Part shown: in pieces, positions 9,159 through 46,370 of the stretch | Numbering within the stretch: the stretch's first letter is position 1 | How the letters are laid out: each line of letters opens with the position of its first letter | Program-made: the position numbers and the translations under genes | Notes under the pieces: model-generated | Databases searched by the model: none | Told to the model about the DNA's origin: nothing | The model's input: the letters and a program-made list of their open reading frames with translations, nothing else | Origin: Tomocerus qinae | Taxonomy: Eukaryota; Arthropoda; Collembola; Entomobryomorpha; Tomoceridae | Direction of reading: 5' to 3' | DNA: 64,000 nucleotides | Assembly (NCBI GenBank): GCA_020055645.1 | Contig: CM034546.1 | Span: 24,428,001-24,492,000 of the forward strand

Positions 9159-12100
9159 ATGGCAAAATCTATTCAAAAAGTCAACCCGGAGGAACTAGAA
9201 GAAATATTCGTCGAATACTTTTCTTGGTATTTGATGACAATTTCAAATGTATCGTCTGACTTTGTACCTAGGGGTCAAACCAAAGCAACACCAAACGTTT
9301 TACAAAAGGCTGGCAAAGCTGTGCCTGGTGTCCTAGGAGTATTTGGGTCTCCAGGAAGATCTGCTGCAACGATATGCCAAGCCGTCATCCAAGAAGGGTA
9401 CAATAAAGACGAGAGAAACAACAATAAGGAAATCTACAACATTCTGCCTCAAAAAAAGAAGGACGCACGCAAAATATTTGTAGACGCCGCAGTAAAACTA
9501 TTTCGGATGTTTGAATATCAATTCTCTAATGTAATCGCAGATAAATATGATGAAGATGGGAGGAGGGCAATGTCCAAGTTGGCTGAAGACGCGGCCGAAA
9601 GAGTAATAAATTACGTCAATAAAGAATACGATGTTATCATCGAACGAAAGTTTCACAAAACACAGAATTTTGTTTTCAATGGAATTTTGTTTGGGGACTC
9701 AGAATGGAATGGCATGAGTAAGGGAAGGACGTTGTTATTAAAAGACTGTTATGGAAAACATAAGAAAATAAATACCACTGATTTATTTGAGACTTCTGGT
9801 TATACTTTACATGAAAATGGAGCAATTGTTTACAAGGAATTGAAAAAAGGAAACGGAGCTGACATTTATAGATACAAACAATTTTGGCCGTTTGATGAGT
9901 ACTATAAAGCAAAAGAGGAAAAGGACGAATGGAAGACTGTTACGAACACTTCCATGAAGCAGGAGTACAAGTTAGCATTTGATGAAGCTGAAGTTTTAAA
10001 GCGAGTGCAAGATATTGCCAAAAAACTGGAACGGAAAGAAAATTCGACGAAAGCGAATGTGGAGGACGTAGGAGACAAGGTGGATGGAGTAGGAGAACAA
10101 TTGAAAGGAGTGGGAGAAAAAGTTGAGCGAGTAGGTGAAAAAGTCACAGCAGTAGATGAAAAACTGGAAGGAGTAGGGAGAAAAGTGGAAGAAGTAGAAG
10201 CAAAAATTGCTCAAGTTGTTCAACAAGGAAACGAAAATTTACTACAGGACATGGCAAAAGCGTTCAAAGATGCCCTAAGTATTCAGATTTTATTTTTTTT
10301 AAATGCACTAAAATAATTGAAATTGTGATGGTGTAAGAGACAAATATGTTGTAAATTCTCACTGAAACAGCGCAGCCAAAAACGGAGGACTTAACGTTAG
10401 TTGGGGCCCACACGTTGCGACTGGCAGATTTTGACAACTTTGACCTTCTTGGTTGCGGTGTATTTGGAGCCGTCGTGAAAGCAAGGCTTAAGAAAAAGGA
10501 CAAGAAATATGCGATTAAAATTACGTAATAACACGCCAAGTATTTAAAAAAATTTATGTAATCATAAAAAACTGAATAATTAAAATATATTGTAAATTTA
10601 GGCGTGACAATACTTATCGTGAGATAAACTGTCTTTTACGATCTGAACATCAAAATATAGTCAAATTTGAAAATGCTTGGAAGGAAAATATCACGGAGGA
10701 AACAGGAGAGCTTCACTACCAGTTCGAAGACTACGTAGGCCTAACCATCTATTGCATTCAGATGGAGCTTTGCAGTGGTCGAGATTTATCTGCATGGATT
10801 TCGAAACCCTCTGTGCAGAAAACAGTAGAAAATGCTAAACAGATTTGTTTTCAGATTTCATTAGGAGTTCAAAGCTTGCACTCCAAAAACATAATTCATA
10901 GAGACTTGAAACCAGCAAATATTCTTCTACTCAATCCTTACCGAAAAGAAAGTAACAATATACTAGTTGTGAAAATTGGAGACTTGGGGATGTCTAAACA
11001 AAGTTCCTTGGAATCCAGAGCAAGTAGAAGAAGTATAATGACCAACTGTGGAACAGAACGATATAGAAGCCCAGAACAGGTGAAACGTGTATTATTACAA
11101 TAATTTTGTTCAAGTTTAAATAAAATGGTTCTAAATTACAAAGGAAAGGGAAAAAGACTATGATGTGCTGGCTGACATATTTTCTATGGGAATAATTTTC
11201 TTTGAAGTTCTGGTCTCAACTCTAGATGGGAGAATAAAAGAAATCTCAATCTCTGACACCAGGAATGGGACATTTCCAAATGAATTCACACTCTCCTTCC
11301 TATCCGAAGTAATGTTCATCTATTAATAAATTGAAATGTACATTTTTAATGTTTTTGTATCCACATATTATGGTCACTTCGTTATGAAATACTATTTAGG
11401 GAGAGCTTATCAAAACTATGTTGTCACACAATCCTAATGATAGGCCGAACTCTGTCTCAGTGACAAATCAGTTAAATAAATTGTGGTTCACAAAAGGTGA
11501 GAACTTTGCTAATATTACATAGATAAATATTGACCACAAAACGTCTATCAGATATTAAACCTAATTATCAGCCTTTATTTATTTAATTAAAAAACGAAGC
11601 AATTAATGTCATGTTGTTAATTGTGCAATGGTTTGAATAATTAAATTAATCTTTGTAGCTACTGCTGACCCAGGACATTTCGAAGTACACAATGAGAATT
11701 GTGGACTAGAAAATCAAGACACGTAAGCACTAACGATTTTAATAATAATTAGACGCCAGACATTCAAAATGCCACAACAGGGGCATGTATGTAACAGTGG
11801 ATTTTTTTAGTATTTTAAATTCCTAATAGTACAAGAAAGTTCATTTCATATTGCCAATGTTATGCTCCTAATTTACATGAAATTATACAATGAACTGTTG
11901 TATAGGAAAAAGCCATTTTATGAATTGGGAAGTTACAAATAGGTTCGAAATTATGAAATAGGAAATAATTGTATGATATTATATGCAATTATTTGAACCC
12001 CCATCTAATCATATGAAATAACCCGAAGTTAATTTTAATTATAGTGTAATTTTAATTGATTTTCTCATACCATAGTATATAGAATTTTACATTTAAAAAG

Positions 12101-14530
12101 GCTATTAAAAGGAAAATTGAATTCCAAATAATCAAAGACGTACTAATTCGTGTTTTGTATACTATTTTAAACATTATTTTTGCAATAATTAAACAATTTT
12201 ATCATTTAATTTTCAGTGAAAACAATTCTTTGAAATCAGCCGACGAAAACCATTATTTAGAAGAGGAGACTATTGTTCTGCCGAGTCCGACCGGGATTGA
12301 AGAATTGTGGGATTGTGATATTAGGTCTCAGTCAGTGGCGACGAATTTATCCACCCAAGATTTAATTTTTGATTCCATAAATACCGAACCAGTCGTGACA
12401 TTTATTTGTCGCGAAAATATTATCGGCAAAGTGAAGCAAAGGGTGGACTCTGCATTTAGAGTACATACGGAATTGTTTGAAAGACAATTACGTCAGAAAA
12501 TGAACGATATTTGGCAGAGCTTAGATAGGGGAAATTGGGAAGTGGAAAAAGAAAACGAATTAAAACGAATCTCAGAAGAGCTCAAATCTATTGCCAATTC
12601 TTGCCCAAGCATATCTTGTGATGGTAATTGTATTGAAGTGCTTCGGTTGAAAGAACGCCTCCTTCATGAATCGGAAGGCAAGAATAGTTATCTTGAGGCA
12701 GAACAAACTGTGAATATGTACATTAAAAAGACGAGGGACTCTACGGTGAAGCATTTAAATCAAATGGCCGAAGCAATTAAAATGAAACATGGATGGTCTT
12801 GCCAATTTGATGCCATAATTGAGAGCATTTTGACTGAGAAATTGAGAGTTAAAACCAACTACTCGGAAATGGAGAGGAAATTGATGGTGGATGAAATTTG
12901 GTTTCGAGTTAAGGAAGAAGTGTCGGCGCAATTACAAGTTACTCCTGCGGATCGAATGATTATCCAAGAAGTCAAAATTGAATACGAATGCATTTCAAAG
13001 GTTTATCGGAGAATTGAAAATTGCAGGTCGACTAATATTCAGTTTCCCAAACTAGGAAAGATGGAGGCCATTGAATTTACTGTATTGGAACGAGGAGTCA
13101 ATATGGGAAAGGATATTTTAGGTTGCAAACGACAACATTCCATTTTGAACTTTCAACAAGTAACTCATCTGGAATTGGAATTAAATGAATTTCCGAACCA
13201 TCTTTTGGTGGAATATAAAACTGAACGGTTCGAATTCGGGATGGTGCGGAAGCTAAAAATTAAAACTTGTTCCCTTTTGGACAACTTCGAGAAGATACAT
13301 GGAAAACTGCTCAAGGATTTTAAATGGGAGGTCCACATTTACGCCCTGATGAAACTAATTCAAGTTATGACTGCCAAAGAGGACATTTGGAATAAAAACA
13401 ACAATCCCTTTTTCATCTTGTGTGCAAATGAAAAAACCTACAAAAATGTAAACAAACTTGATATATTGATTTACCAAAAATTTAAAATAATAACCGACTA
13501 AACTAACTAATAGCAAATCTTATTATTTTTACAGAAAATTTACATTCGACTCAGGTATGGATTTGGTTTTGAGGCAGAAAGCAGAATTATCAGTGAAGCT
13601 CTTGTGACAGCCATATTAATCCGAGGTGAAAATCTCGGGAATCGTTGGTATATCGACTATATCAAATCGATCAGTTGGCTAACTAGCAGCGAAATGGTCC
13701 GATTTCAATATTTTCAAGATCTCGCCACACTTGCTCAAGATATACAGAAAGGGAGACTTAGAGAAAAAGAACTTATAGAAAAATCTTTGACATATTTTAT
13801 CAATCCAAAATGGTCAATTGAATCTTGGTTTAAGGCAGAGTTGGATTCAACACCCACGAAAATGGCGGTCGACAAATACTTGGAACTCGTGAACACGGAA
13901 TTCAAAATTGTCGTTCAGGAAATTCGATACAAGGAAAGTAGCCAAGAAATGAAGAGCTACATCAGTTCATATTTGGCCCAAACAGAAGGCATCGACATGG
14001 GTTACAATCCAGGAGTAGATTTGAACGATGGGACGTTGGTCGAATTAAAAACCCTCAAAGTTATAATAGTGAAAGAAATGGAGAGAACTAAGGCTTCTCT
14101 CCAAGAAGATGTGGAAATCACGAAATCTTCAGTCCATTCGGAATTAACTAACTTATTAGGGTGTACCGAACATTGTTTCTGGTGCGGTAGCTTATGCTTT
14201 GGAGAGGTGGGTCATACCGAAAATATTGGTATAACCAAGAAGCATCGCACATGCCATCAGCCTGCAGGCCTTGCGGGGACCAATGATAAAGATTCAGGAC
14301 ATTTGCTGGGCACCTCGTGTGACAATTTCGGAGAAAACTGGACCGTATATTGGGCCAGGAATCCAGGGGGAATGTCCTGGACAACCGCTAAATTGCACGA
14401 AGATTTTGCTAACTGGAATTTTACATCTGATAATGGGCCAGAATATAAGAAGCTGATGGAATGGTTTTTCGTTCTACTACGTAATGATATCACCAAATCC
14501 GAAACCAAATTTTGTCGACAGACAAATTAA
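9159..14530 (+). CDS. PEK/PKR-like kinase fused to a VLIG/GVIN-type C-terminal tail (eight exons, 1,434 aa)
   Basis: Exons: 9159-10278, 10371-10524, 10602-11079, 11144-11308, 11400-11496, 11659-11722, 12217-13447, 13535-14530. All introns are GT-AG, phases agree and the total is 4,305 nt. Residues 1-298 form a mostly helical N-terminal domain with a Gly/Ala/Pro-rich stretch near 45-80. Residues 299-356 are a heptad coiled coil (repeated VGEKV). Residues 393-670 are a kinase: G-loop GCGVFG (401-406), K423, E432, HRDLKPAN (524-531), DLG (552-554), SPE (581-583). YREINCL, NAW and IQMELC resemble the eIF2alpha-kinase (PEK) group, and all catalytic residues are kept, so activity is likely. Residues 694-1434 are helical and end in the VLIG/GVIN-type zinc motif with C1313, C1317, C1320, C1324, H1330, H1340, H1344 and HQPAGLAG. 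No GTPase domain is present. A cytosolic stress or immune kinase is an inference. Confidence 0.85.
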
Positions 14531-16619: not shown

Positions 16620-17872
16620 GGAGTTTTGATTATCAGTTGAGAGTTAATTTTGTTTCGCAAATTTGTTGTTGTAGTAGGTACATTTTTAATTCTTTACTGA
16701 ATGAGATAACATTATCATTCTCTTGAAGCGAAGATGGGAGACAGTTCCAAGTTCACGAAGCAATACTCTCTAAGACCCTTTCACTATATTTATTTTTATG
16801 AACACCTTTACAAAAAAGCTCATCTTTATTTCTAGTATCATAATTATGGATTGTGCTCTTTTTAACAAAATAATTCTCGAAGTAACGAGGACAAGAGTTG
16901 TAAATTACAGAATGCCCAAAAGTGAGTAAATTTTTTGTGAACATTTCATGTGGAAATAACCAATTTAATTTTACTGAAATTGTCTCTTTAATATTCTCAT
17001 ACCACAACCTTTGTAGATCATACGGCCAGCCCTCCGCATCCTAAGTACGTTACCAACTATTTTTAACTCTTTTTTGTTTGCCGATCCCCACACTATAGCC
17101 ATGTAGTTAATAACTGGGATAAGATATGCATTACACATAAGCATGATAATATTTTTAGGAAATAGATCTCTCATTGGGTACAATGATTTGATTATTGAAT
17201 GACACCTAAAATATATTCTATTTATTTCAGCTCTCTAGGAAAGTACTGGATCGAGAACTACACCTAACGTTTCAAACCGGTCGCTATTTTTAATAGTTAT
17301 GCCGTCTACTTCAATGACAAATTCTCCAATAGTAGACACTTGCTCAGGGTTGCCAATAGCCATCATTTGTGTTTTAGAGAGATTTAGTGACATGCCATTA
17401 TCTATCATCCATTTGTTGACAAATTGTAAGTCATCTATTAGATTATTTTTAATTTTTTCAAAATCTTTAGGTTTGCCTGATATACAAAGATTTGTGTCAT
17501 CCGCAAATAGAATTGCTATACATTTCTGTAAGACCAGTGGCAAATCATTTATGTAGATGGCAAAGATTAGATTCGAACATATTCCACCTTGTGGACAGCC
17601 CCGTGCAGTGAAAATGACCTTAGAATTCATTCCATTTTTCCCCTTAACAAATTGGAACCTTGTAGACAGGTACGACTCAAACCATTTAGGGTCCACACCG
17701 TACCATTTAAGTTTTTCGATGAAGAATTCTCTCACAATAGTGTCATATGGTTTCCTCATATCCAATGCTACTATTATACAGATGTTTCCAATTGCAAATT
17801 GTTTGTGAATTATGTCAGTTAATGCCAAAATAGCGTGCTTTGTAGAATGTTGTTTCCTTAAACCATTTGAGC
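16620..17872 (-). pseudogene. Degenerate non-LTR retrotransposon reverse transcriptase
   Basis: Reading on the minus strand from about 17872, the frame carries KQHSTKHAILALTD, then the RT core with VALDMRKPYDT (motif A region), GCPQGG (motif B) and LFADDT (catalytic FADD), and continues through LSKTQMM and LGVVLDP. An in-frame TAG follows near 17235, where such elements continue. Further matches then appear in shifted frames: PVINYMAIVWGSA, then LNWLFPHEM and YDTRNKDELF near 16971-16753. This is the order of the RT C-terminal and thumb region in CR1/Jockey-type LINEs. The 5' part (endonuclease, ORF1) is absent, so the copy is 5'-truncated and dead. Exact clade is not assigned. Confidence 0.85.
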
Positions 17873-17889
17873 TTTATATAGTAGATTTT

Positions 17890-19731: not shown

Positions 19732-21842
19732 TTATAGTAACGCCACCTGTTTAGAAATGTCGAGAGTGGCAAAATCATGTTTTATTTCATTAAGAGTTCG
19801 TAAACGGGCGCCTCCATCAGCAATTTCGTTTTTATAATATTCTAGAAACTCATAAGCTTCTCTGAAGTAGGGTACGCTCAATTTGATTTCTTCAAGCAAT
19901 TCTTCAGTCAAACATAGCATTGCCAAAGTCTTCAACGCAAACAGTATGTCCATCTTTGTAGTGCCTATGAATACAGAAGAAAAATTTTCATTATTTTGAA
20001 CCAAACTAGGAAGTAAAACCATGATTTTATCAGGGAAATAAAAATTAACAAAGACTCACAGCATAAATAAGAGAGTCCTGGAAAAGTAATTTCATTAACC
20101 GAGAGCTGATGCTCTAAATGTAATTTAAAGGCGTCAACGTCCATGGGACCAATTACGACCAAGCATCTAGTTACTTGCTCAACTGCTTTAAGAATGACAA
20201 AATGATTCTTGTGTAATACTTTCCCCGAGTTTTCCTTAATTATCGATTGGTAAAACGCGATGTCATCCCGAGGTGGCTTTTCAATAACAAAGTCCATCAG
20301 TTTTTGTATTTCAGGAAGAAATGTTGAAGCGCGGACGGTCTTAGAACATCGATTGCACTTCCAAGACGCCTTTCTTCCGAGGAAAAGAGGATCTTCTGGT
20401 AACATGAACCCAGAATTGGAAGTCTTGAACAACTCTTGGTTGTCCGATTCCGCATAACAGGAAGAGCAGGTCACAGCTGACATGTAAGTGCCCAACTCAG
20501 TCGGGTCGACGCATCTCTTGCACTTACACACGAAGAACTTCAATTCCCTTAGACATTTTTGTCGATCAGCTGTTCCAACGTAGGGCTGTCCAAAGTAGCC
20601 TATAGTCAATGGTTCTCCCTTTTTAATGGCAGTAGCAGTTCGCACTTGCATTTTAAAATCCGGAGACTGAGGAATGATTGAGTTGGAACAGTTTGGAGCA
20701 CAAGAGTGCGAGAATTTACTGGCTTTTATATAGGTACAGTGGATGGCAGATCTAACACAATTTAAACATTCAATTATTGAACACAACAATATAATTATTT
20801 TAGTATATTAACTTAGAACTCACCTGTCTGTAATGCTTTCACACCGAAATGAGTTTATCTTCCTCACCCAAGGAAGGGCAAATGCATCTTTGTCTGAAAT
20901 TCCCATTAAATTGAAATCAAAATGATATTTTATTGTGCATGCGTCTTCAACATTTATTTCGTCATCTTCAGCTGATTGGACAATTTTCGGCACGCTCTGC
21001 AGTTTCATCAGATCTTCGTATATCTTCTTATTGGTTTCTTTTAATGTTTTGGCACGAGTTATGTCAACAGCTAAATCGATCCGATTTGGAGCAATAAATG
21101 TTGTAATTGGAGGAAATGAAAATCCAAACTCTTTAAAAACTCTGCACTCACTGTCTACATGAATAGGTTTCTAAAAAATGATATTTTATAATAATTAGTA
21201 ATTTAATTTCACTTAATATTCAAGTATAAGCTTTAGCATTTTATAGCTGCTTACTTTTGCACATTCTTCATCACACATTGGCCACTTACAACGTCCACAT
21301 CGATAAAAATTTGTCTTCAAATTTATAAACATCCCACAAGCCAGACAAATCGCCTTGGACAAATACGAATCTTTGAAAGACTCGAGAGGCCAGTGAATAC
21401 TCTTAAGTGCTGGGGATTCATTCAAAAGAAGAGTTCCTGGCTCTAGGTCACGGCCTGCAACCCATTGCTTGCCGAAGATTGGGTCATCTTGGATTACCAT
21501 AATTGGCGAACAAGTCTTCTTGTGGTCCTTCCAGTTTTCCTTTTGATGCTCCGGTGAACAGTAAAATGTCGTCTGGCAACTCGAACATCGCTTTGACGCT
21601 TCTTTATTGCACACAATGCAATTCTAAAATCAAAGTAAATATCAGTAAAACGAAAATGCTATTTGTTAGCACTCGGTTACATATTATGATAAAAATCATT
21701 TACTCAATCCAAATTTAAAAATTGTAGGGAATTTTGAAACTAAAGTATGAAAAGACCGTAAACCTGGACATTCAACATTACAATACAACCAACAACTGTT
21801 TCTTTAACAGAAATCATCAAAATGATCAAAACTACTTACCAT
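19732..21842 (-). CDS. SmydA-type MYND/SET-domain protein (five exons, 547 aa)
   Basis: Exons on the minus strand: 21842-21840 (start codon only), 21623-21255, 21170-20824, 20751-20060, 19964-19732. Phases agree and the sum is 1,644 nt. The MYND zinc finger is at residues 3-39: C3, C6, C14, C17, C23, H27, H35, C39, with H27 where many MYND fingers have cysteine, a variant I associate with the arthropod SmydA group. A split SET domain follows, starting GRDLEPGTLLLNESP, with the S-ET core at KFSHSCAPNCSNS (252-264), GEPLTIGYFG and the cysteine-rich post-SET CKCKRC. The C-terminal helical region is shorter than in SMYD4 with its TPR domain. Family members are lysine methyltransferases or regulators in the nucleus and cytosol; the substrate here is unknown. 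The first exon carries only ATG, followed by the strong donor GTAAGTAG. Confidence 0.85.
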
Positions 21843-25850: not shown

Positions 25851-26826
25851 ATGAAATTATTAGTGGCCATATTATTAGTTGCCTTTCCTGTATCTAGTAT
25901 GGGTAGGTTGGATTAAATTGTGTTTAAAACGACGAATTATAATTAAAATGTAATTTTGGGCTAATAACTATTTCTTTCGTTTTTTAAGGATTAAAATGTT
26001 ACCAATGTCACCATTTAACTCCCCAAATCCCAGATGAAGAAAACACTAATGACCCACTTTGCAAAGAACCCGGCGGCACTCTTTATCTTGAAGAATGCAA
26101 TGAATATAGTGAGGTCATACCAATACCAAGTAAGAAATATAACCTTTATTTAATTAAAGTCCACGATGCCCAACAAACGCGAAAAATGAAGTGAAAGTTA
26201 AGCCGGGATAAGTTTATAGTTATATTTACATTAGGTTAAGTTAGAATTGGTATTGTTAGATTGCTTTATAGATTTGCTTTTGCTATGGACATGCCTTTAA
26301 AATTGTTATTTGAACAGGACGAAAAAATTATTTAATAACTACCTAATTACATTTTTCGACTTTTTGAGCAGTTTTGCGTATATTTTTAATTAATTACTTC
26401 TTTATTATTTTTCAAGTCTACCCAAAAGTGTTGAATGGTTTGGAAATGATCACCAATCGCATTGCCGAGAGTTTGCAGCAACGGAAACAAGATATGTACA
26501 TTAACGACGAAATCAGGAACGAGACAGAGTCAGAATATTCTTGTGCATCTTTAGTGGGAGCCGGATATGGTGTAAATGGTGCTTATCGAGGCTGTGTAAC
26601 TAATGTCCCCGATATCTGTGAAAAAGGAGGTCAGCAATCATCTGTTCAATTATGTTTTTGTAACGAAGACGGTTGCAACGATCATCTAGTTCCGAGTCGT
26701 GCAAATGGAACGACCACCCCAAGAGGCGATACTACAACTTCGGGGGGAAATGGTCTATCTTCATTCTTCGTCTCTATAATTTTAGGCTTGGTTGTTTCCT
26801 TTAGCATGTCAAGAATCATTTTTTAA
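25851..26826 (+). CDS. Ly6/uPAR three-finger protein, GPI-anchored type (200 aa)
   Basis: Exons 25851-25902, 25989-26129, 26417-26826; the sum of 603 nt keeps frame. Exon 1 is a signal peptide (MKLLVAILLVAFPVSSMG). The mature part starts LKCYQC and has ten cysteines in Ly6 order: C-X2-C, PLC, EEC, YSC, RGC, DIC, CFC, and the final GCN signature. A Ser/Thr-rich linker follows, then a hydrophobic C terminus (LSSFFVSIILGLVVSFSMS) typical of a GPI-attachment signal. The family acts at the cell surface or in secretions as ligand, channel modulator or cuticle/junction factor; the specific role is unknown. AATAAA occurs about 47 bases after the stop. It shares its exon plan and phases (1,1) with the genes at 28045 and 30105. 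Confidence 0.85.
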
Positions 26827-28044
26827 ACATTTCTTATCTATAAGTAATATTGTATATTTTGACCCTACGAACAAAATAAATACTTATAATACATTAAAAC
26901 AGTAACTTATGCTTGGCAGTGGGATATTAGGACAAAAATTATGTGAAATAAATATTTTTGATGTATTTTTAGAGAAACAATTTATAAATTTTATCGAATC
27001 TGTTTAAAAATAAATCTCTGCTGTTAATAATTTGTACATAATTTCTATGAAAGTGTTAATAAAAACGCCGTTTTATCTATTAGGTATATGCATTACAATA
27101 ATGATTACATAACTAAAAATGTAGCTTTTATTTATGCGCTCACTAAAATTTAGTTTGAGTGATGATACATTTTTAAACGTAAGTTTGTGGAAATTGGACT
27201 CTTACTTCTTACCTAATTATTACACATAGTCAATGTTGTACATAGATAAACAATTCATTTGATTATTCTCGTATTAAAATGGAATGTAAGGCTGATAAGG
27301 GAACAATGGTCATTGTAGGTATCTCAAGTATTTGCCTTTAACATTCTTTCCATATACAAAATGACAAGATTTACTAGGTTTGGTTATTATTTTCGTGTTG
27401 TTGTTTATTTTTGCATTTTTTCCTACTTCAAATGGTGCATGATTCCCAATGACGATGAAGATATCGTGTATAAATGTATTTTAATACTTGCGAAACCATG
27501 AAACCTCTTGAAACTATATATTGCAGTCTCATCAGTCAATGCATGTCGCAACTTCCCCACTCCACCCAGAATAAACTGGTTCATACAGAGTATAGCTGAA
27601 GCTGGACACCACACACTTTTAGCAAAACCATACAGTATAATTATAGACTATAGAGTATTACATTATATAATAATGTCCTAAGCATTTTCGCATGAATGCA
27701 TGTGAATTAAAACATCATTTAACGAATTGCTGTTGTAACTGACTAAGTGGTCTTTGTAGCATTTTTATTTTATCTAGTGACATGTTTACATCAAATGACA
27801 TAATGTGACATTGCAAATAAAAACATTTTTCATGTTTATATAAATACAGTGTATGTAACTTTAGATTACTCAATCGAAACATTTCTTATCTTATGTACAT
27901 CTGCATAAACTGATTGTGCTTAATTTTCAATTGTCTGTCACCTGTGTATGAGAAAAATTCATGATATTCCAGTTCATTCAATAAAGTGAAGCTTAGAAGC
28001 TTGGAGATATTTATTTTTAAACCTACAACATAACCATTTTAGCC
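26827..28044. other. Intergenic between Ly6 genes
   Basis: This holds a poly-A signal for the upstream gene and the presumed promoter of the next. No other gene, array or palindrome was recognised. Confidence 0.45.
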
Positions 28045-28681
28045 ATGAAATTATTAATCGCTTTGATTCTCGTTGCCTTTCCTGTATCTAGTCTTGGTAA
28101 GGATTTGCTAGATCAATATTTTTATAGTCATATAAATTTATATAAGTTTTATAAAATATTAAATTAATAAACTTTTTTCATAGGGTTAAAATGCTACGAG
28201 TGTACCCATTTATCTCCAAATATACCCGGGGAAGATAGTACCATAAATCCACTTTGCGTAACACCTGCTCCTGCTTACCTTATAGATTGCGAGGACAGTG
28301 AAGTCATACCAATACCAAGTGAGACATTTGTTTTTTAACCAGTATAATTTCAAACCTTTCAATTATTTAGTTATACCAAAAACTTGTAAAAATTATGATA
28401 ACAATGAAAGCTTGACTTTTTTAGTTTATCCAAAAATGTTCCTGTCGATGATTGGAATGGACGTTAGTCGACTAGAGAATAATGGGAAGCAACAGAATTC
28501 AAAATACTCCTGTGCATCTTTGGTGGGAGCTGGATACGGTGTCACTGGAGCTGCCCGTGGTTGTGTAACAAATGTTCCTGATATATGCGAAAAGGCTGGT
28601 CAAGACGCAGCTGTTGAGATGTGTTTTTGCAACACTGACGGCTGTAATAATCATCTAATTCCAGCTGATCCTTCTCCTTAA
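28045..28681 (+). CDS. Ly6/uPAR three-finger protein, secreted type (147 aa)
   Basis: Exons 28045-28096, 28184-28318, 28425-28681; the sum of 444 nt keeps frame. The signal peptide is MKLLIALILVAFPVSSLG. The domain begins LKCYEC and carries all ten cysteines, including YSCASLVGAGYGV, ARGCVTNVPDICEK and MCFCNTDGCN. The protein stops at NHLIPADPSP with no hydrophobic tail, so unlike its neighbours at 25851 and 30105 it should be secreted rather than membrane-anchored. Introns are short (87 and 106 bases). Confidence 0.85.
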
Positions 28682-30104
28682 ATTAAAATATCGATGTTAA
28701 TTAAAATTTTGTTCCATCAATATTATCATTCTAGCGTTTTAATTATTTTTGTTCTATTTCACATTGCCACTTTTTATGTATTGCTATTAAAATTTGTCCC
28801 TCGTTCTATGGCATAAAATGTAATAATTATCATAAATATTAGGTTAATTGTGTAAGTGTAACAGTCATTAGTATTTTAATACGCATTTACAGAGATTATT
28901 TACGGCATAATATTAAACTATTTTTCAAGATTCATCAATAGTTTAACTTTTATCTAGATTGTCTGAATTATTAATAAATACAACAAAGTTGTCCTTATTA
29001 TGAAGATTCATAAGAACAAAGAAAAGCATGAATTGTCAGTTTTGGTTTCGCTTGTCAGCGTCAAATACTGGCAAGTTAAAAAAAATATTAGATTTGAAAT
29101 TTTCCAATTACGCTAAGGGGCATACGTCCAGAATGCTCTAGATAGATGGCGCAAAATAATGTTCCAATGAAATGGTACTTTTTTCCAAAAGGCTAAACAT
29201 TTTGTCATTTTCAGCTTCATAAACATAAAGCATAAAACTTTCCGTAGGTACTGTATGGATTGCTTTACGCCATCATCACCATTGTACATTGGGAATAAAT
29301 TAATTTTACTTGCATTGGATTTATTTCTTGATACATGAATAACTTTAGAGAAAGAATTCTCATATAACTCGTAAATGAAATTATACGTAAAAGGAATGAA
29401 TGGATCATGTTATTTTGGTTCTTTTTAAAACGCTGAGAGGCTTCTTACTTACAAAGCCATGACATCGATGGTATATCATTATTTACATCTAACACGCAGT
29501 GGACATTGTATTATAAAAATGGGTGAATAATGTCCAATTATTTATTACAAGGCGTTAAAAGGAATCTTTACTAATCAGAATAAACATTTCCCAATGAGTA
29601 AGCAGCCACTTGACACAAATAGCTTCCGACTCGCATTCACTCTTTTGTTGGTTTTCCGGCATAATTAAAAACAATATTGACAAGCATGTATAATTTTAAT
29701 TAACAACAAATCCATTAAACATATCAGTTATATAGCTCTATCCACTTCACTGGAAAACCATTATATTTATATGTTAACCTTCCCATCTTTAAAGTGAAGT
29801 TACATGTTATGGTTTACTATATGACACAACGTTGCAGACTTTTATCTAAAACTGATAATATGAACAACATCGCTTAATGATCCGAATTGAGCCGACATGT
29901 AAAAATGAACACATTTAGATAATAATATTGATTTTTAAGCATTCGATTGAAAGCTTATCTGAAGCAGAAGGTATTTTCAATGTGTATGCTTCCATTGGTA
30001 AGGTTGAATAAACAAAATTATATTTTCAATTGCTCATTAATGTCTGTGAAGTTCAATACGTTGGATAAGTACTTCTTGCTTTTGATACCTTTTGAAATAT
30101 AATC
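28682..30104. other. Intergenic between Ly6 genes
   Basis: About 1.4 kb of AT-rich DNA with no recognised exon, element end or tandem array. Confidence 0.45.
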
Positions 30105-31800
30105 ATGAAATTGTTGGCCGCTTTCTTTTTGGTAGCCCTCCCAGCATCTTGTTTAGGTAAGACGGGTATATCCACCCAAAGGAAATATAAATCTTTGGTT
30201 TTATACAATTGACTATAATAATTATAATTGTTTGAATAAAGGGCTGAAGTGCTATGAATGTATTCACCTAACTCCGCCTATTCCAGAAGAAGATTTTAGA
30301 AATGATGCATGCTATGCAGGAACGGACACAGCGAGCCTTATTGATTGCGAAAATGCATACGAGGTTATACCAATACCAAGTAAGCATTTCACACTACCTT
30401 CAAGATATTCTTTTTCTGGTTTTAGGAAAAACATTTTTGTAATCATCATAGTCATAAATCATACTACAATGGAATCTATAACTTCTATCTTTTTAACGAA
30501 GATAATAATACATTTTGTCACCAGTCGCCAACTATGCATTTTTGGATTGGACTGTAAATTACTGTGATTCAATTACCAAAAATGATTTCAAAGTTTTGCA
30601 AAATTCGTTTTTTAAACATCTTATCTTTTAAGCCATTTATTATAACAGCTGTGCAATTATTATAACAGTTCAATGTTTAACAAATGATGATGATAATAAT
30701 ATTATATCAATCAGGGTACAAAGGTACGTTTGAATTTTGATTTATAAATTCGTTAATATTACCGTATTAATCGAATTAATTCTCCGGGTTGTTATTGTTT
30801 CATTGGCCTTTTTTTAGCTCCTGAAAACGATGAAAATCGAAATAGTTAACCAGGTGGTGAATTATTTCGATACGGAGAATTATTTTTCAAACAGTCAATT
30901 TTTGTTAAGTTATTGAAAATTAAAAAATGCGAAAGAGTTTAAAAATTCAATTGATTGTGTAAATGTCCATGGGTTCAGTGAGGTCTATAGGCATTTCTTC
31001 GTCGTCTGAGGACAACAGTTTGTCATCATCATCTATCACACATATTGGCTGACCAGTTTCTGGATATTGGGTGCTTTGTAGCAGAAGCTCCATACTCCAT
31101 ACCTTTACTACAGTCTCTTCCAACTTAGATTTGGATGGTGAATTATTTCGATACGGAGAATTATATTTCAAATGCTATTATTTTGCTCTTGAAAACGAAA
31201 AAATCGAAATAGTTCTCCGGGGGAGAACTATTTCAATACGGAGAATTAATTCGATTAATACGGTATATTTCTATGTGACAATTGCAATTCCATTTAAATT
31301 ACATGCTGGTTTCTTTAAAGCTTTTTTAAATTTTTTGTTACGTAGCTAAATAACTATGACGTAAAAGATGGTCTCAATGTTGTTGTGTATTTCAGAGATG
31401 TAGAATGCATTGTATGGAGCTAAATCATTAATTTTCTATTTTTAAAGTCTATCCGAATGCCACGAAGAAGCTCATCCGTTCAGGGAGTGAAATAGGGCCA
31501 AATCAACAACCAAATCAATATTCATGCGGATTAATAGTATTATTTGGATATGGCGTCAGGGGAGCTGCTCGTGGCTGCGTAACAAATGTTCCCGACATAT
31601 ACGAAACAGGTGGTACCGCTCCAGAATCCTTTGTTAAAGTGATGTTCTGTAACACTGATGCCTGCAATTACCACACCGTAACCACTGAGGATTTAAAAAC
31701 GACGACAACCAAAGGAGAAGATGGCAGTGGATCTACACCGGTCGGATTTTCATCTCTATTTATTGTTATTTCTTTATTTGTTACTAAAATGTTCTTTTGA
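30105..31800 (+). CDS. Ly6/uPAR protein lacking one disulfide pair, GPI-type tail (180 aa)
   Basis: Exons 30105-30156, 30242-30379, 31448-31800; the sum of 543 nt keeps frame. The signal peptide is MKLLAAFFLVALPASCLG. The domain begins LKCYECIHLTP and has eight cysteines. Where paralogues have DICEK and CFCN, this one has DIYET and MFCN, so both partners of the expected C7-C8 bond are missing while C9 and C10 remain. A Thr-rich linker and hydrophobic end (GFSSLFIVISLFVTKMFF) suggest a GPI anchor. Intron 2 is 1,068 bases because a TA-flanked miniature element (30762-31263) sits in it. The intact frame and paired cysteine loss argue for a functional gene. Confidence 0.8.
30762..31263. mobile_element. 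TA-flanked miniature element (pogo-like), copy 2, in a Ly6 intron
   Basis: Terminal inverted repeats start CCGTATTAATCGAATTAATT, with TA on both sides. On the minus strand at 31171-30947 it holds an open frame of about 74 codons ending in an acidic tail with DDDDKLLSSDDEE. This frame is repeated nearly identically in copy 3 at 36426-36936. Acidic C-termini are known from pogo/Tigger-type transposases, so this may be the tail of a transposase kept after an internal deletion (inference). Confidence 0.8.
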
Positions 31801-42097: not shown

Positions 42098-45000
42098 TCA
42101 TTTTAGTTTTGCAACGTTCGAAATTTTTGACATTGCGTTTAAAATTTTAGTCACTTTTAGAGCGATATAGTAATTTGGATTACCAAAATGTGTCTCCATT
42201 TTAGTTTTGCCACGTTCGAAAATGTTGACGTTGTTTTTTAATTTTTGTCAATTTTAGAACAATATAGTAACTTGGAGGTCCTAAATGCGTCTCCGTTTTA
42301 GTTTTGCAACGTTCGAAATTTTTGACATTGAGTAAATACATAAGAGACCTTGCAGGCTGGGAACAAAATGTCACAGTCGAAGTTGTTACTTTCAGATTCT
42401 AATCTACTTACTGATATGAAAAAACTAATTTCAGGATTTTTTTTGAAAACCCGCCGTTTTTAAGTTATGGCGGTTTTCCGCCTTATTTCGTTCATCTATG
42501 ATTCATTTCTAAACGGCTGGACCGATTTTAATGAAACCAACGCCATTCTTCTCGTAAACGCTTTCCTCACATAACCCCTTTTTTAGATTTTCAATTTTTT
42601 TCAAAATTTCGAAATAAATGTTGAAAAAAGTTCAAAAATTTTTTTTTTTCAACATCGTTATCAGAATTGTTGTTAAATACGATAAAAACGCTAATTCAGA
42701 CCAAAATGAGGGTGTAAATACCAAAAATGTCATAATCTTGGGGTAATTTTCAAGCGTTAACTCAGAGTTTTTATTTTTGACAAATTATCAAAAAAATAAT
42801 TTACAGCGCAATTTGAAACAAGAAATTTACATTTTTCACTTCTATAAATACGCATAAAATGGTATAGTGCAGTACTAGTCATTACATGTGGCTTCAGCTA
42901 CTTGCCGATTTACAGCGTTACATACAACACCCCACCATAGTTTAACCCAAAATAATACACAGTGTGGTTATGTTAGAGGAACTCTTGGAATCTGAATCGA
43001 AACCTAAGGATACAGCTAAGACCCGTAATTAGGAGCTTTAAAGCTCTACAAGGAACCGAAATCAGCTGCCTCGCAGGACACGCGGTTTTAACCAAGCCTG
43101 TAATCAGCGACTCGGTTCTATCCTCCAACAGAGCCCGAAATAAGACCCAAGGAGAAGTCAGAGTAACCAACAGTCTCAAGCAAGCTGACTGTCAGTAAGA
43201 CATATAGCATTAGGCAGGTAACCACAGCAACAGATCCCAGAGACCAAACAAGTCTCAGAATTCCCATTTTCCATTAGAATTCGAACTAACCAATTTCAGC
43301 TGCAACTATACTATTGCAGTCGTTCATGCACCAACGACCGTCAATTATTACGGTAATTCAAAGCCTCGGCCTTCTGCTTTAGGTCTTGTCTAACACACTA
43401 CACAGTTTAGATGGGAGGACAGTGGCGGTCTCCCACAGAAGCGTCATTCACCTTAACTAACAGCCTAAAATAACCAATCAAATGCATAAACTCTATTGTT
43501 TATGTGATTAGAACATCCAACACTTCTGCGGGTGGCCTCTGATAGGCCATTAACCAACTGCAAGGCTCGTTTCCTGCTTCTAGTTTATACTAGGTACTAA
43601 ATACAATTCTGTGCGGTAATTAGATCGTTGTATAATTAATCAAAACAATTAGGGACATATAGTGGGGTGTTGTATGTAACGCTGTAAATCGGCAAGTAGC
43701 TGAAGCCACAGCTCCTGATTACGGGTCTTAGCTGTATCCTTAGGTTTCGATTCAGATTCCAAGAGTTCCTCTAACATAACCACACTGTGTATTATTTTGG
43801 GTTAAACTATGGTGGGGTGTTGTATGTAACGCTGTAAATCGGCAAGTAGCTGAAGCCACATGTAATGACTAGTACTGCACTATACCATTTTATGCGTATT
43901 TATAGAAGTGAAAAATGTAAATTTCTTGTTTCAAATTGCGCTGTAAATTATTTTTTTGATAATTTGTCAAAAATAAAAACTCTGAGTTAACGCTTGAAAA
44001 TTACCCCAAGATTATGACATTTTTGGTATTTACACCCTCATTAATGAGATTTTGGTCTGAATTAGCGTTTTTATCGTATTTAACAACAATTCTGATAACA
44101 ATGTTGAAAAAAAATTTTTTTGAACTTTTTCAAAATTTATTTCGAAATTTTGAAAAAAATTTGAAAATCTAAAAAAGGGGCCATGTGAGGAAAGCGTTTA
44201 CGAGAAGAATGGCGTTGGTTTCATTAAAATCGGTCCAGCCGTTTATAAATGAATCATAGATGAACGAAATAAGGCGAAAACGCCATAACTTAAAGACGGC
44301 GGGTTTTCAAAAAAATCCTGAAATTAGTTTTTTCATACAACTAAGTAGATTAGAATCTGAAAGTAACAACTTCGACTGTGACATTTTGTTCCCAGCCTGC
44401 AAGGTCTCTTATGCATTTACTCCATTGCGTTTTAAATTTTAGTCAACTGTAGAGCAATTAAGTAATTTGGATTACCAAAATGCGTCTCCATTTTAGTTTT
44501 GCCACGTTCGAAATATTTGACATTGCGTTTTAAATTTTAGTCAACTGTAGAGCAATATAGCAATTTGGACTAAATGCGTCTCCTATTTTAATTTTGCAAC
44601 GTTCGAAATTTTTGACATTGTTTTTTAATTTTAGTCAATTCTGCAGCAATATAAAAATTTGGAGTTCCTAAATGCGTCTCCATTTTAATTTTGCCACGTT
44701 CGAAATTTTTAAAATTGTTTTTTAAATTTTAGTCAATTGTAGAGCAATATAAAAATTTGGAGTTCCTAAATGCGTCTCCATTTTAGTTTTGCCACGTTCG
44801 AAATATTTAAAATTGCGTTTTAAATTTTAGTCAACTTTAGAGCAATTAAGTAATTTGGATTACCAAAATGCGTCTCCATTTTAGTTTTGCCACATTCGAA
44901 AATGTTGACATTATTTTTTAATTTTGGTCAATTTTAGAGCAATAGAGTAATTTGGAGTTCTTAAATGCGTCTCCATTTTAGTTTTGCTACGTACGAAAAT

Positions 45001-46370
45001 GTGGACATTGTTTTTTAATTTTAGTCCACTCTATAGCAATATAGTACTTTGGAGTTCTTAAATGCGTCTCCATTTTACTTATGCCACGTTCAAAAATGTT
45101 GACGTTGTTTTTTAATTTTGGTCAATTTTAGAACAATATAGTAACTTGGAGGTCCTAAATGCGTCACCGTTTTAGTTTTGCAACGTTCGAAATTTTTGAC
45201 ATTGCGTTTTAAATTTTAGTCAACTGTAGAGCAATATAGCAATTTGGAGTTCCTAAATGCGTCTCCATTTTAGTTTTGCCACGTTCGAAATTTTTGAAAT
45301 TGCGTTTTAAATTTTAGTCAATTGTAGAGCAATATAGCAATTTGGAGTTACTAAATGCATCTCTATTTTAGTTTTGCCACGTTCGAAATTTTTGACAGTG
45401 CGTTTTGAATTTTAGTCACTTGTAGAGCGATATAGTAATTTGGGTTACCAAAATGTGTCTCCATTTTAGTTTTGCCACGTTCGAAAATGTTGACATTGTT
45501 TTTTAATTTTGGTCAATTTTAGAGCAATATAGTAACTTGGAGTTCCTAAATGTGTCTCCATTTTAGTTTTGCCACGTTCGAAATTTTTGACATTGTTTTT
45601 TAATTTTGGTCAATTTTAGAGCAATATAGTAATTTGGAGTTCCTAAATGCGTCTCCTTTTTAATTTTGCCACGTTCGAAATTTTTGACATTGTTTTTTTA
45701 ATTTTGGTCAATTCTGCAGCAATATAGTAATTTGGAGTTCCTAAATGCGTCTTCATTTAAGTTTTGCCACGTTGGAAATTTTTGAAATTGCGTTTTAAAT
45801 TTTAGTCAATTGTAGAGCAATATAGTAATTTGGATTACCAAAATGCGTCTCCATTTTAGTTTTGCCACGTTCGAAATATTTGACATTGCGTTTAAAATTT
45901 TAGTGAATTGTAGAGCAATATAGTAATTTTGAGTTCCTAAATGCGTCTCCATTTTAGTTTTGCCACGTTTGAAAATGTTGAAATTGTTTTTTAATTTTGG
46001 TCAATTTTAGAGCAATATAGTAACTTGGAGTTCCTTAATGTGTCTCCATTTTAGTTTTGCCACGTTCGAAATTTTTGACATTGCGTTTTAAATTTTAGTC
46101 AACTGTAGAGCAATATAGCAATTTGGAGTTCCTAAATGCGTCTCCATTTTAGTTTTGCCACGTTCGAAATTTTTGAAACTGCGTTTTAAATTTTAGTCAA
46201 TTGTAGAGCAATATAGCAATTTGGAGTTCCTAAATGCGTCTCCATTTTAGTTTTGCCACGTTCGAAATTTTTGAAATTGCGTTTTAAGTTTTAGTCAATT
46301 GTAGAGCAATGTAGAGCGTCTCCATTTTACTTTTGCCACGCTGGAAAATGTTGACATTGCTTTTAAATTT
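42098..46370. repeat. Satellite array, ~98-bp unit, about 22 copies
   Basis: Repeated units carry GCGTCTCCATTTTAGTTTTG, CCACGTTCGAAATTTTTGAC, a GCGTTTTAAATTTTAGTCAA block and AGAGCAATATAGTAATTTGG. About 2.4 units lie at 42098-42329 and roughly 19-20 at 44423-46370. The two parts are split by a foldback element. The array sits between the two copies of the segmental duplication. Copy number is a length estimate. Confidence 0.9.
42330..44422. mobile_element. 2.1-kb foldback element with ~710-bp inverted arms, inserted in the satellite
   Basis: The arms are 42330-43037 and 43710-44422, starting GAGTAAATACATAAGAGACC and its near inverse, with high identity throughout. The satellite sequence CATT occurs on both sides (42326-42329 and 44423-44426), consistent with a 4-bp target duplication. 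The ~670-base centre is non-coding and carries an extra copy of part of an arm (43660-43709 repeats 43812-43861). No transposase is present. Confidence 0.85.

Follow-up and report, generated by a model that had tools for sequence, protein, structure and literature searches.

Structure and constraint of an eight-exon gene

The window analysed here is the whole stretch of 64,000 nucleotides from contig CM034546.1 (C1) of the springtail Tomocerus qinae, and the gene under study lies on its forward strand at positions 9159-14530. Eight exons, separated by introns that are all of the GT-AG type, join into 1,434 in-frame codons with a single stop at the end. The predicted protein opens with an N-terminal domain (NTD) and a coiled coil, continues with an eIF2alpha-kinase-like domain, and ends with the tail of the very large inducible GTPases (VLIG), the GTPase itself being absent. 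Exon 1 (9159-10278) codes for the NTD (about residues 1-270) and the coiled coil (about residues 273-373). The kinase begins in exon 2 (10371-10524), which holds the start of the N-lobe, the glycine loop and K423, and its core lies in exon 3 (10602-11079) with E432, HRD 524-526, N531, DLG 552-554 and the activation segment up to SPEQ. Exon 4 (11144-11308) covers the C-lobe including the alphaG region (SDTRNGTFP), exon 5 (11400-11496) the end of the kinase domain, and exon 6 (11659-11722) a linker of 21 residues. Exon 7 (12217-13447) starts with 44 residues that have no VLIG match (693-736) and then encodes the first part of the tail (residues 737-1103), and the second part and the stop codon are in exon 8 (13535-14530). 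An earlier note, made from the sequence alone, had proposed this eight-exon join, and checking the splice sites and the translation bore it out.

A sister locus, L034 (C1:24.65 Mb), lies on this contig at a distance of 218 kb, with exons 1-8 in identical order and a DNA identity of 86-97% per exon (30-base flanks included). L034 keeps linker exon 6 (partly kept also in a further paralog, L046), its donor, the acceptor of exon 7 and the reading phase, but exons 4 and 5 are no longer separated by an intron there. The exon joins are supported, because this paralog keeps the exon order, the exon 6 donor and the exon 7 acceptor. It could still be argued that a kinase gene and an adjacent GTPase-less VLIG tail gene were wrongly joined, since no tail lies near 12 of the 14 places in the genome with a close copy of the kinase and no kinase was seen in the stretches read at four VLIG GTPase loci. 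Against this stand the exon 6, splice sites and phase shared with L034, and also exon 7 itself, which has a pyrimidine-rich acceptor and whose first methionine is residue 788. Since no methionine occurs in the first 95 residues of that exon, a separate tail gene beginning at 12217, which the earlier note had named as the alternative, is unlikely on this reading of the sequence; a single gene is favoured, and we consider a wrong join very improbable.

In the window copy, the NTD, the kinase and the tail all look conserved, judging by the ratio of nonsynonymous to synonymous rates (dN/dS) for changes since the split of the window gene and L034, which were polarised with outgroups and are small in number. 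On the window branch, dN/dS was 0.24-0.27 in the NTD (14-20 changes with each of four outgroups; 26-30 ambiguous codons omitted), 0.14-0.27 in exon 3 of the kinase (4-6 changes with each of three outgroups; 9-12 ambiguous codons omitted) and 0.14 in exon 7 of the tail (6 nonsynonymous and 11 synonymous changes with L051, a VLIG gene described below, as outgroup; 36 ambiguous codons omitted). The L034 branch showed higher values for the NTD (0.41-1.23) and the tail (0.45), and a value for the kinase that was not always higher (0.17-0.46). In L034, the junction of exons 4 and 5 has also changed in length so that the frame breaks, exon 7 has a frameshift (read from the DNA and from a split tblastn match), and one stop lies within the aligned codons of exon 8. 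These frameshifts and the stop, together with further family copies that look broken (L040, L045 and L046), could point to a recent chimera that is drifting to decay and has no function. However, the window copy has an open frame of 1,434 codons and its polarised dN/dS, although from small counts, is 0.14-0.27, and we regard such a chimera as the least probable of the explanations weighed here.

The kinase and the VLIG tail

The kinase domain matched Pfam family PF00069 (E 1.5e-40), and its catalytic set is complete, with K423, E432, HRD 524-526, N531 and D552 of the DLG motif all present, in agreement with the earlier note. Searched against PDB as a single protein, it matched PERK best (E 8.3e-34) and PKR next (E 1.7e-30), and these two kinases made up the top eight matches. 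A profile of four kinases of this genome, in which a few residues at exon joins were entered by hand and the L046 row spans a frame break, ranked first 13 distinct sequences, 11 of them named PERK, PKR or GCN2 and two bearing generic kinase names (1zxe and 9bf3). The SPEQ and DxR landmarks aligned with those of eIF2alpha kinases in the profile alignment, and the DxRNxxFP of the alphaG region is as in PERK. With its class assigned by PDB ranking and not by a tree, the window kinase is thus best described as eIF2alpha-kinase-like, in agreement with the earlier note. In contrast, the kinase of P0035, a VLIG fusion protein of Gigaspora, ranked MAP3K12 first. The window protein is like the known eIF2alpha kinases (PERK/EIF2AK3, PKR/EIF2AK2, GCN2 and HRI) in its catalytic residues, SPEQ and DxR and in having PERK and PKR closest in PDB, but differs in that the NTD and the VLIG tail replace their known regulatory domains and the alphaG contacts seem partly changed.

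Exon 3 used as a query gave 72 matches in the genome, among them 14 places at 71% identity or more (13 on C1 and one on C16). A kinase copy at 91% identity, read over C1:24345900-24347800, has exon 2, and no NTD match was found in the preceding 1.6 kb. A PHR-like segment (PF08005, below cut-off) lies 3' of the kinase in two paralogs, at coding positions 3846-4139 of L037 and 4286-4600 of L046, and in L035 the partner of the kinase is a set of short tandem repeats. Three PKR-like kinase genes without the NTD stand in tandem at L050:1-9001 (C1:78.645 Mb); the one kinase exon tested from that array was closest to PKR and then to GCN2.

No Pfam model exceeded the cut-off in the window tail, and a direct database search with it gave no match. 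Its relatives are in the same genome. Two URGCP/VLIG GTPase genes, L047 (PF25683, E 4.8e-66) and L048 (PF25683, E 5.7e-65), have tails that match window exons 7 and 8; for L047 the identity was 26% over exon 7 (E 2.8e-28) and 37% over exon 8 (E 4.2e-58). L051 (C1:18.09 Mb), also a VLIG GTPase gene (PF25683, E 2.3e-64), has a tail 82% identical to window residues 737-1103 (302/367), with the close match starting at about residue 758. The fourth such gene, L052/L054 (C1:14.52 Mb), has a tail 60% identical to that of the window and is 84% identical to L051 over a stretch of 232 residues that starts where the GTPase domain ends and runs on into the tail. L051 and L052/L054 were considered as further kinase-tail fusions and rejected, both being VLIG GTPase genes. 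In total, 14 tail places were found, all on C1; gene type was assigned for the six that were read (two in kinase genes and four in VLIG GTPase genes), the other eight being outside the loci read.

Similar matches were obtained in other species. Exon 8 was 35% identical to a VLIG protein of Jimgerdemannia (E 1.7e-62) and exon 7 was 30.5% identical to P0027 of the springtail Folsomia candida (E 3.9e-40), while the whole tail was 30-32% identical to the best six among 120 VLIG proteins listed (419 found); springtail, lamprey and fungal VLIG proteins all stand at about 30%. Among the 120 proteins listed, P0027 was the best match of both L051 and the window tail; for L047 and L048 the best match was a lamprey VLIG protein, not the one from Folsomia. 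Because it matches both the VLIG GTPase genes of its own genome and VLIG proteins elsewhere, the tail is a VLIG tail. Comparison with VLIG proteins, which the earlier note had suggested, finds relatives at 30-35% identity in other species, and the tail is not unrelated to VLIG.

The C/H motif (14162-14320, forward strand) consists of C1313, C1317, C1320, C1324, H1330, H1340, H1344 and C1365; all eight sites are present in the window tail, and each column is identical in 29 or 30 of 31 aligned sequences. A Pfam scan of the window protein found no URGCP-type GTPase, whereas with that library it is detected in L047, L048 and L051, and the scan found no NB-ARC or NACHT domain either. A VLIG/GVIN tail with a C/H motif and no GTPase, as the earlier note had described it, is what these comparisons support. 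In short, the protein has the whole tail and the eight C/H columns in common with VLIG/GVIN (URGCP-type) GTPases and has a kinase in place of their URGCP and GTPase domains, and the gene thus retains a VLIG tail whose GTPase was lost or was never present. Such a tail might also be a decoy, in which pathogen factors that target VLIG proteins would bind it and trigger the kinase, comparable to the integrated domains of plant NLRs. The missing GTPase, the retained C/H motif and the closeness to one VLIG lineage (L051 and L052, far above L047/L048 at 26-37%) would suit this idea, but the 6 nonsynonymous and 11 synonymous changes on the window branch suggest a tail that is conserved and not fast-evolving. 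We know of no pathogen factor that targets VLIG tails, which also counts against the decoy, and we think it a distinctly unlikely explanation.

The presence of a kinase and VLIG parts on one chain, which had drawn the earlier note to this gene, is confirmed, but it is not unique. A Pkinase domain was also found in 8 of the 120 VLIG proteins listed (P0019, P0035, P0046, P0047, P0051, P0056, P0060 and P0062), all from Gigasporaceae genera. Unlike the window protein, these fungal proteins match the URGCP and GTPase models, and the sole kinase tested, that of P0035, is MAP3K12-like. Among the literature-search matches listed, no description was found of a VLIG fusion with an eIF2-kinase type of kinase, a missing GTPase or the shared NTD. 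What appears to be new here is the eIF2-kinase type, the absent GTPase and the shared NTD, the kinase-VLIG chain as such already being present in Gigasporaceae.

An N-terminal domain shared with NB-ARC and VLIG genes

The most informative part of the window gene is its front domain, whose sharing with other genes was beyond the reach of the earlier note. Exon 1 matched no Pfam family over the cut-off, and matches before residue 270 were weak; across 14 NTD exons, the commonest Pfam matches, where placed, fell on the coiled coil, and a profile of the 14 sequences gave a best PDB match of just E 0.25. Used as a genome query, the NTD gave 25 matches at 17 loci, every one on C1, and the reverse query with the NTD of VLIG gene L047 gave 21 matches at the identical 17 loci. 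This count of at least 17 loci is a lower bound, as the search scores best candidates only. The NTD is a conserved domain that appears to be undescribed as far as searches of Pfam and PDB go. The earlier note had called it a helical domain; the domain stands, and its helicity rests on low-confidence helices in a poor structure prediction (model pLDDT, a predicted local confidence score, of 43).

The sequence downstream of the NTD was read in the window and in 16 further regions. A kinase follows the NTD at 5 of the 17 loci (the window, L034, L035, L037 and L046) and a VLIG GTPase at two (L047 and L048), whereas NB-ARC over the Pfam cut-off follows it at six (L036, L038, L039, L041, L042 and L043). 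These six genes also have traces of TPR or FNIP repeats, below the cut-off except for FNIP in L038. Two other loci, L040 and L044, have weak or broken NB-ARC-type exons as judged by eye, and the remaining two, L049 and the decayed L045, have no recognised domain after the NTD. Thus, one domain seems to tie NLR-like, VLIG and eIF2-kinase-like proteins of this genome together. The window protein shares the NTD with the NB-ARC (NLR-like STAND) proteins and has no NB-ARC itself.

Several of these loci are of interest in their own right. The six NB-ARC genes on C1 encode NLR-like proteins that open with the NTD of the window gene, in an arthropod; to our knowledge, insects have no NLRs. In L047 (C1:69.18 Mb), one open frame of 1,618 codons spans the NTD to the first part of the tail, and L048 (C1:61.13 Mb) is a VLIG-type GTPase gene with the same NTD as the window gene. 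All 17 NTD loci and all 14 tail places found are on C1, which makes up 140 of the 334 Mb of the genome.

The coiled coil proposed for this gene is supported by its heptads. Over residues 277-366, a and d positions are 80% hydrophobic, compared with 18% at other positions (best of seven registers). Part of it is coded by a heptad-length DNA repeat with a 21-base period at 10059-10206. A tandem expansion of the coiled-coil heptad block was observed in L036, an NB-ARC paralog with a first frame of 606 codons, at about coding position 1900-2580.

Elsewhere in the window, a retroelement reverse transcriptase fragment (PF00078, E 4.5e-26) lies on the reverse strand at 17238-17873, and SET and MYND matches in adjacent open frames at 19968-21623, also on the reverse strand, indicate an SMYD-like gene. 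At least three similar small open frames, Ly6-like by eye and with no Pfam match, stand in tandem on the forward strand at 26368-31797, and a tandem array with a 98-base unit in about 19 copies occupies 44423-46314.

A possible clustering-triggered kinase effector

Taken as a whole, our reading is that the locus is one protein-coding gene built by exon and domain shuffling, and that its product, with NTD and coil, eIF2alpha-type kinase and GTPase-less VLIG tail, would be a kinase effector that is triggered by clustering and connects with NLR-like and VLIG partners; we put the chances of this as about even. The steps beyond the domain assignment we infer from sequence and by analogy. Assembly of the protein may be driven by the NTD and the long coil, a combination suited to induced clustering, with the NTDs of NB-ARC or VLIG proteins as like-with-like partners; since the NTD is common to both, recruitment by them is suggested, like that through the adaptor domains of other NLR systems. 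Clustering would then activate the kinase, because dimerisation and trans-phosphorylation are what turns on eIF2alpha kinases. For PKR, dimerisation is stated in a passage of PMC5851622. Through its VLIG tail, the kinase could enter or sense assemblies of VLIG proteins: a passage of PMC11974893 describes human GVIN1, a VLIG protein, as forming a coat around Burkholderia thailandensis, so a VLIG tail could bring the kinase to such coats on intracellular bacteria. The kinase would then phosphorylate eIF2alpha, a plausible substrate for it, or another substrate nearby, leading to a local or general stop of translation and to cell-autonomous defence. An immune-type role is supported indirectly, because the same NTD occurs on NB-ARC proteins and VLIG GTPases, and to this extent the suggestion of cell-autonomous immunity in the earlier note holds.

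Several observations weigh against this reading. In the single-protein ranking, ULK1 came directly below the top eight and before GCN2 and HRI, and in the profile ranking ULK1 was next after the top 13 and HRI 18th, so that ULK1 stood over HRI. The alphaG surface by which PKR docks eIF2alpha seems only partly kept: with sites placed by what we take to be the numbering of PKR, an ungapped alignment has Asp and Ile at the positions of Thr487 and Glu490, and a Thr is matched only when the alignment is moved by two residues. By the same numbering, the Gly277 site is Val. Thr487 of PKR is described as highly constrained in a passage of PMC11556786. Pfam scans covering the whole protein matched no dsRNA-binding, heme, tRNA-synthetase (HisRS-like) or luminal sensor domain, and the fold of the tail had no clear match in PDB. 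The NTD adjoins only five and the tail only two of the 14 close kinase-exon places; therefore only a minority of this expanded kinase family has the fused form, and L034, the sole other copy with kinase and tail, looks decayed. An alphaG region that seems partly changed, and a lineage-specific expansion with varied partner segments (the sub-threshold PHR-like segments of L037 and L046 and the repeats of L035), could instead indicate a general immune-signalling kinase, similar to RIPK-type adaptors, whose substrate would be an NTD protein and not eIF2alpha. The profile ranking among eIF2alpha kinases and the aligned SPEQ and DxR speak against this, and we consider it unlikely, if less so than a decoy.

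Beyond the effector reading, we tentatively propose, as a possibility we would not yet favour, that the NTD is a homotypic signalling module that wires together NB-ARC sensors, VLIG coat formers and PKR/PERK-like translation-stopping kinases, with the window protein as an adaptor between two arms. PKR-like and VLIG proteins are known as separate interferon-induced proteins in vertebrates. Here an arthropod genome unites eIF2-kinase-like and VLIG parts in a single chain, and one undescribed NTD is common to its NB-ARC proteins, VLIG GTPases and these kinases. If the NTD is a homotypic adaptor, this would give a testable pathway from NLR-like to PKR-like proteins in an arthropod without interferon, and it would also offer a handle on the role of the VLIG tail apart from the GTPase.

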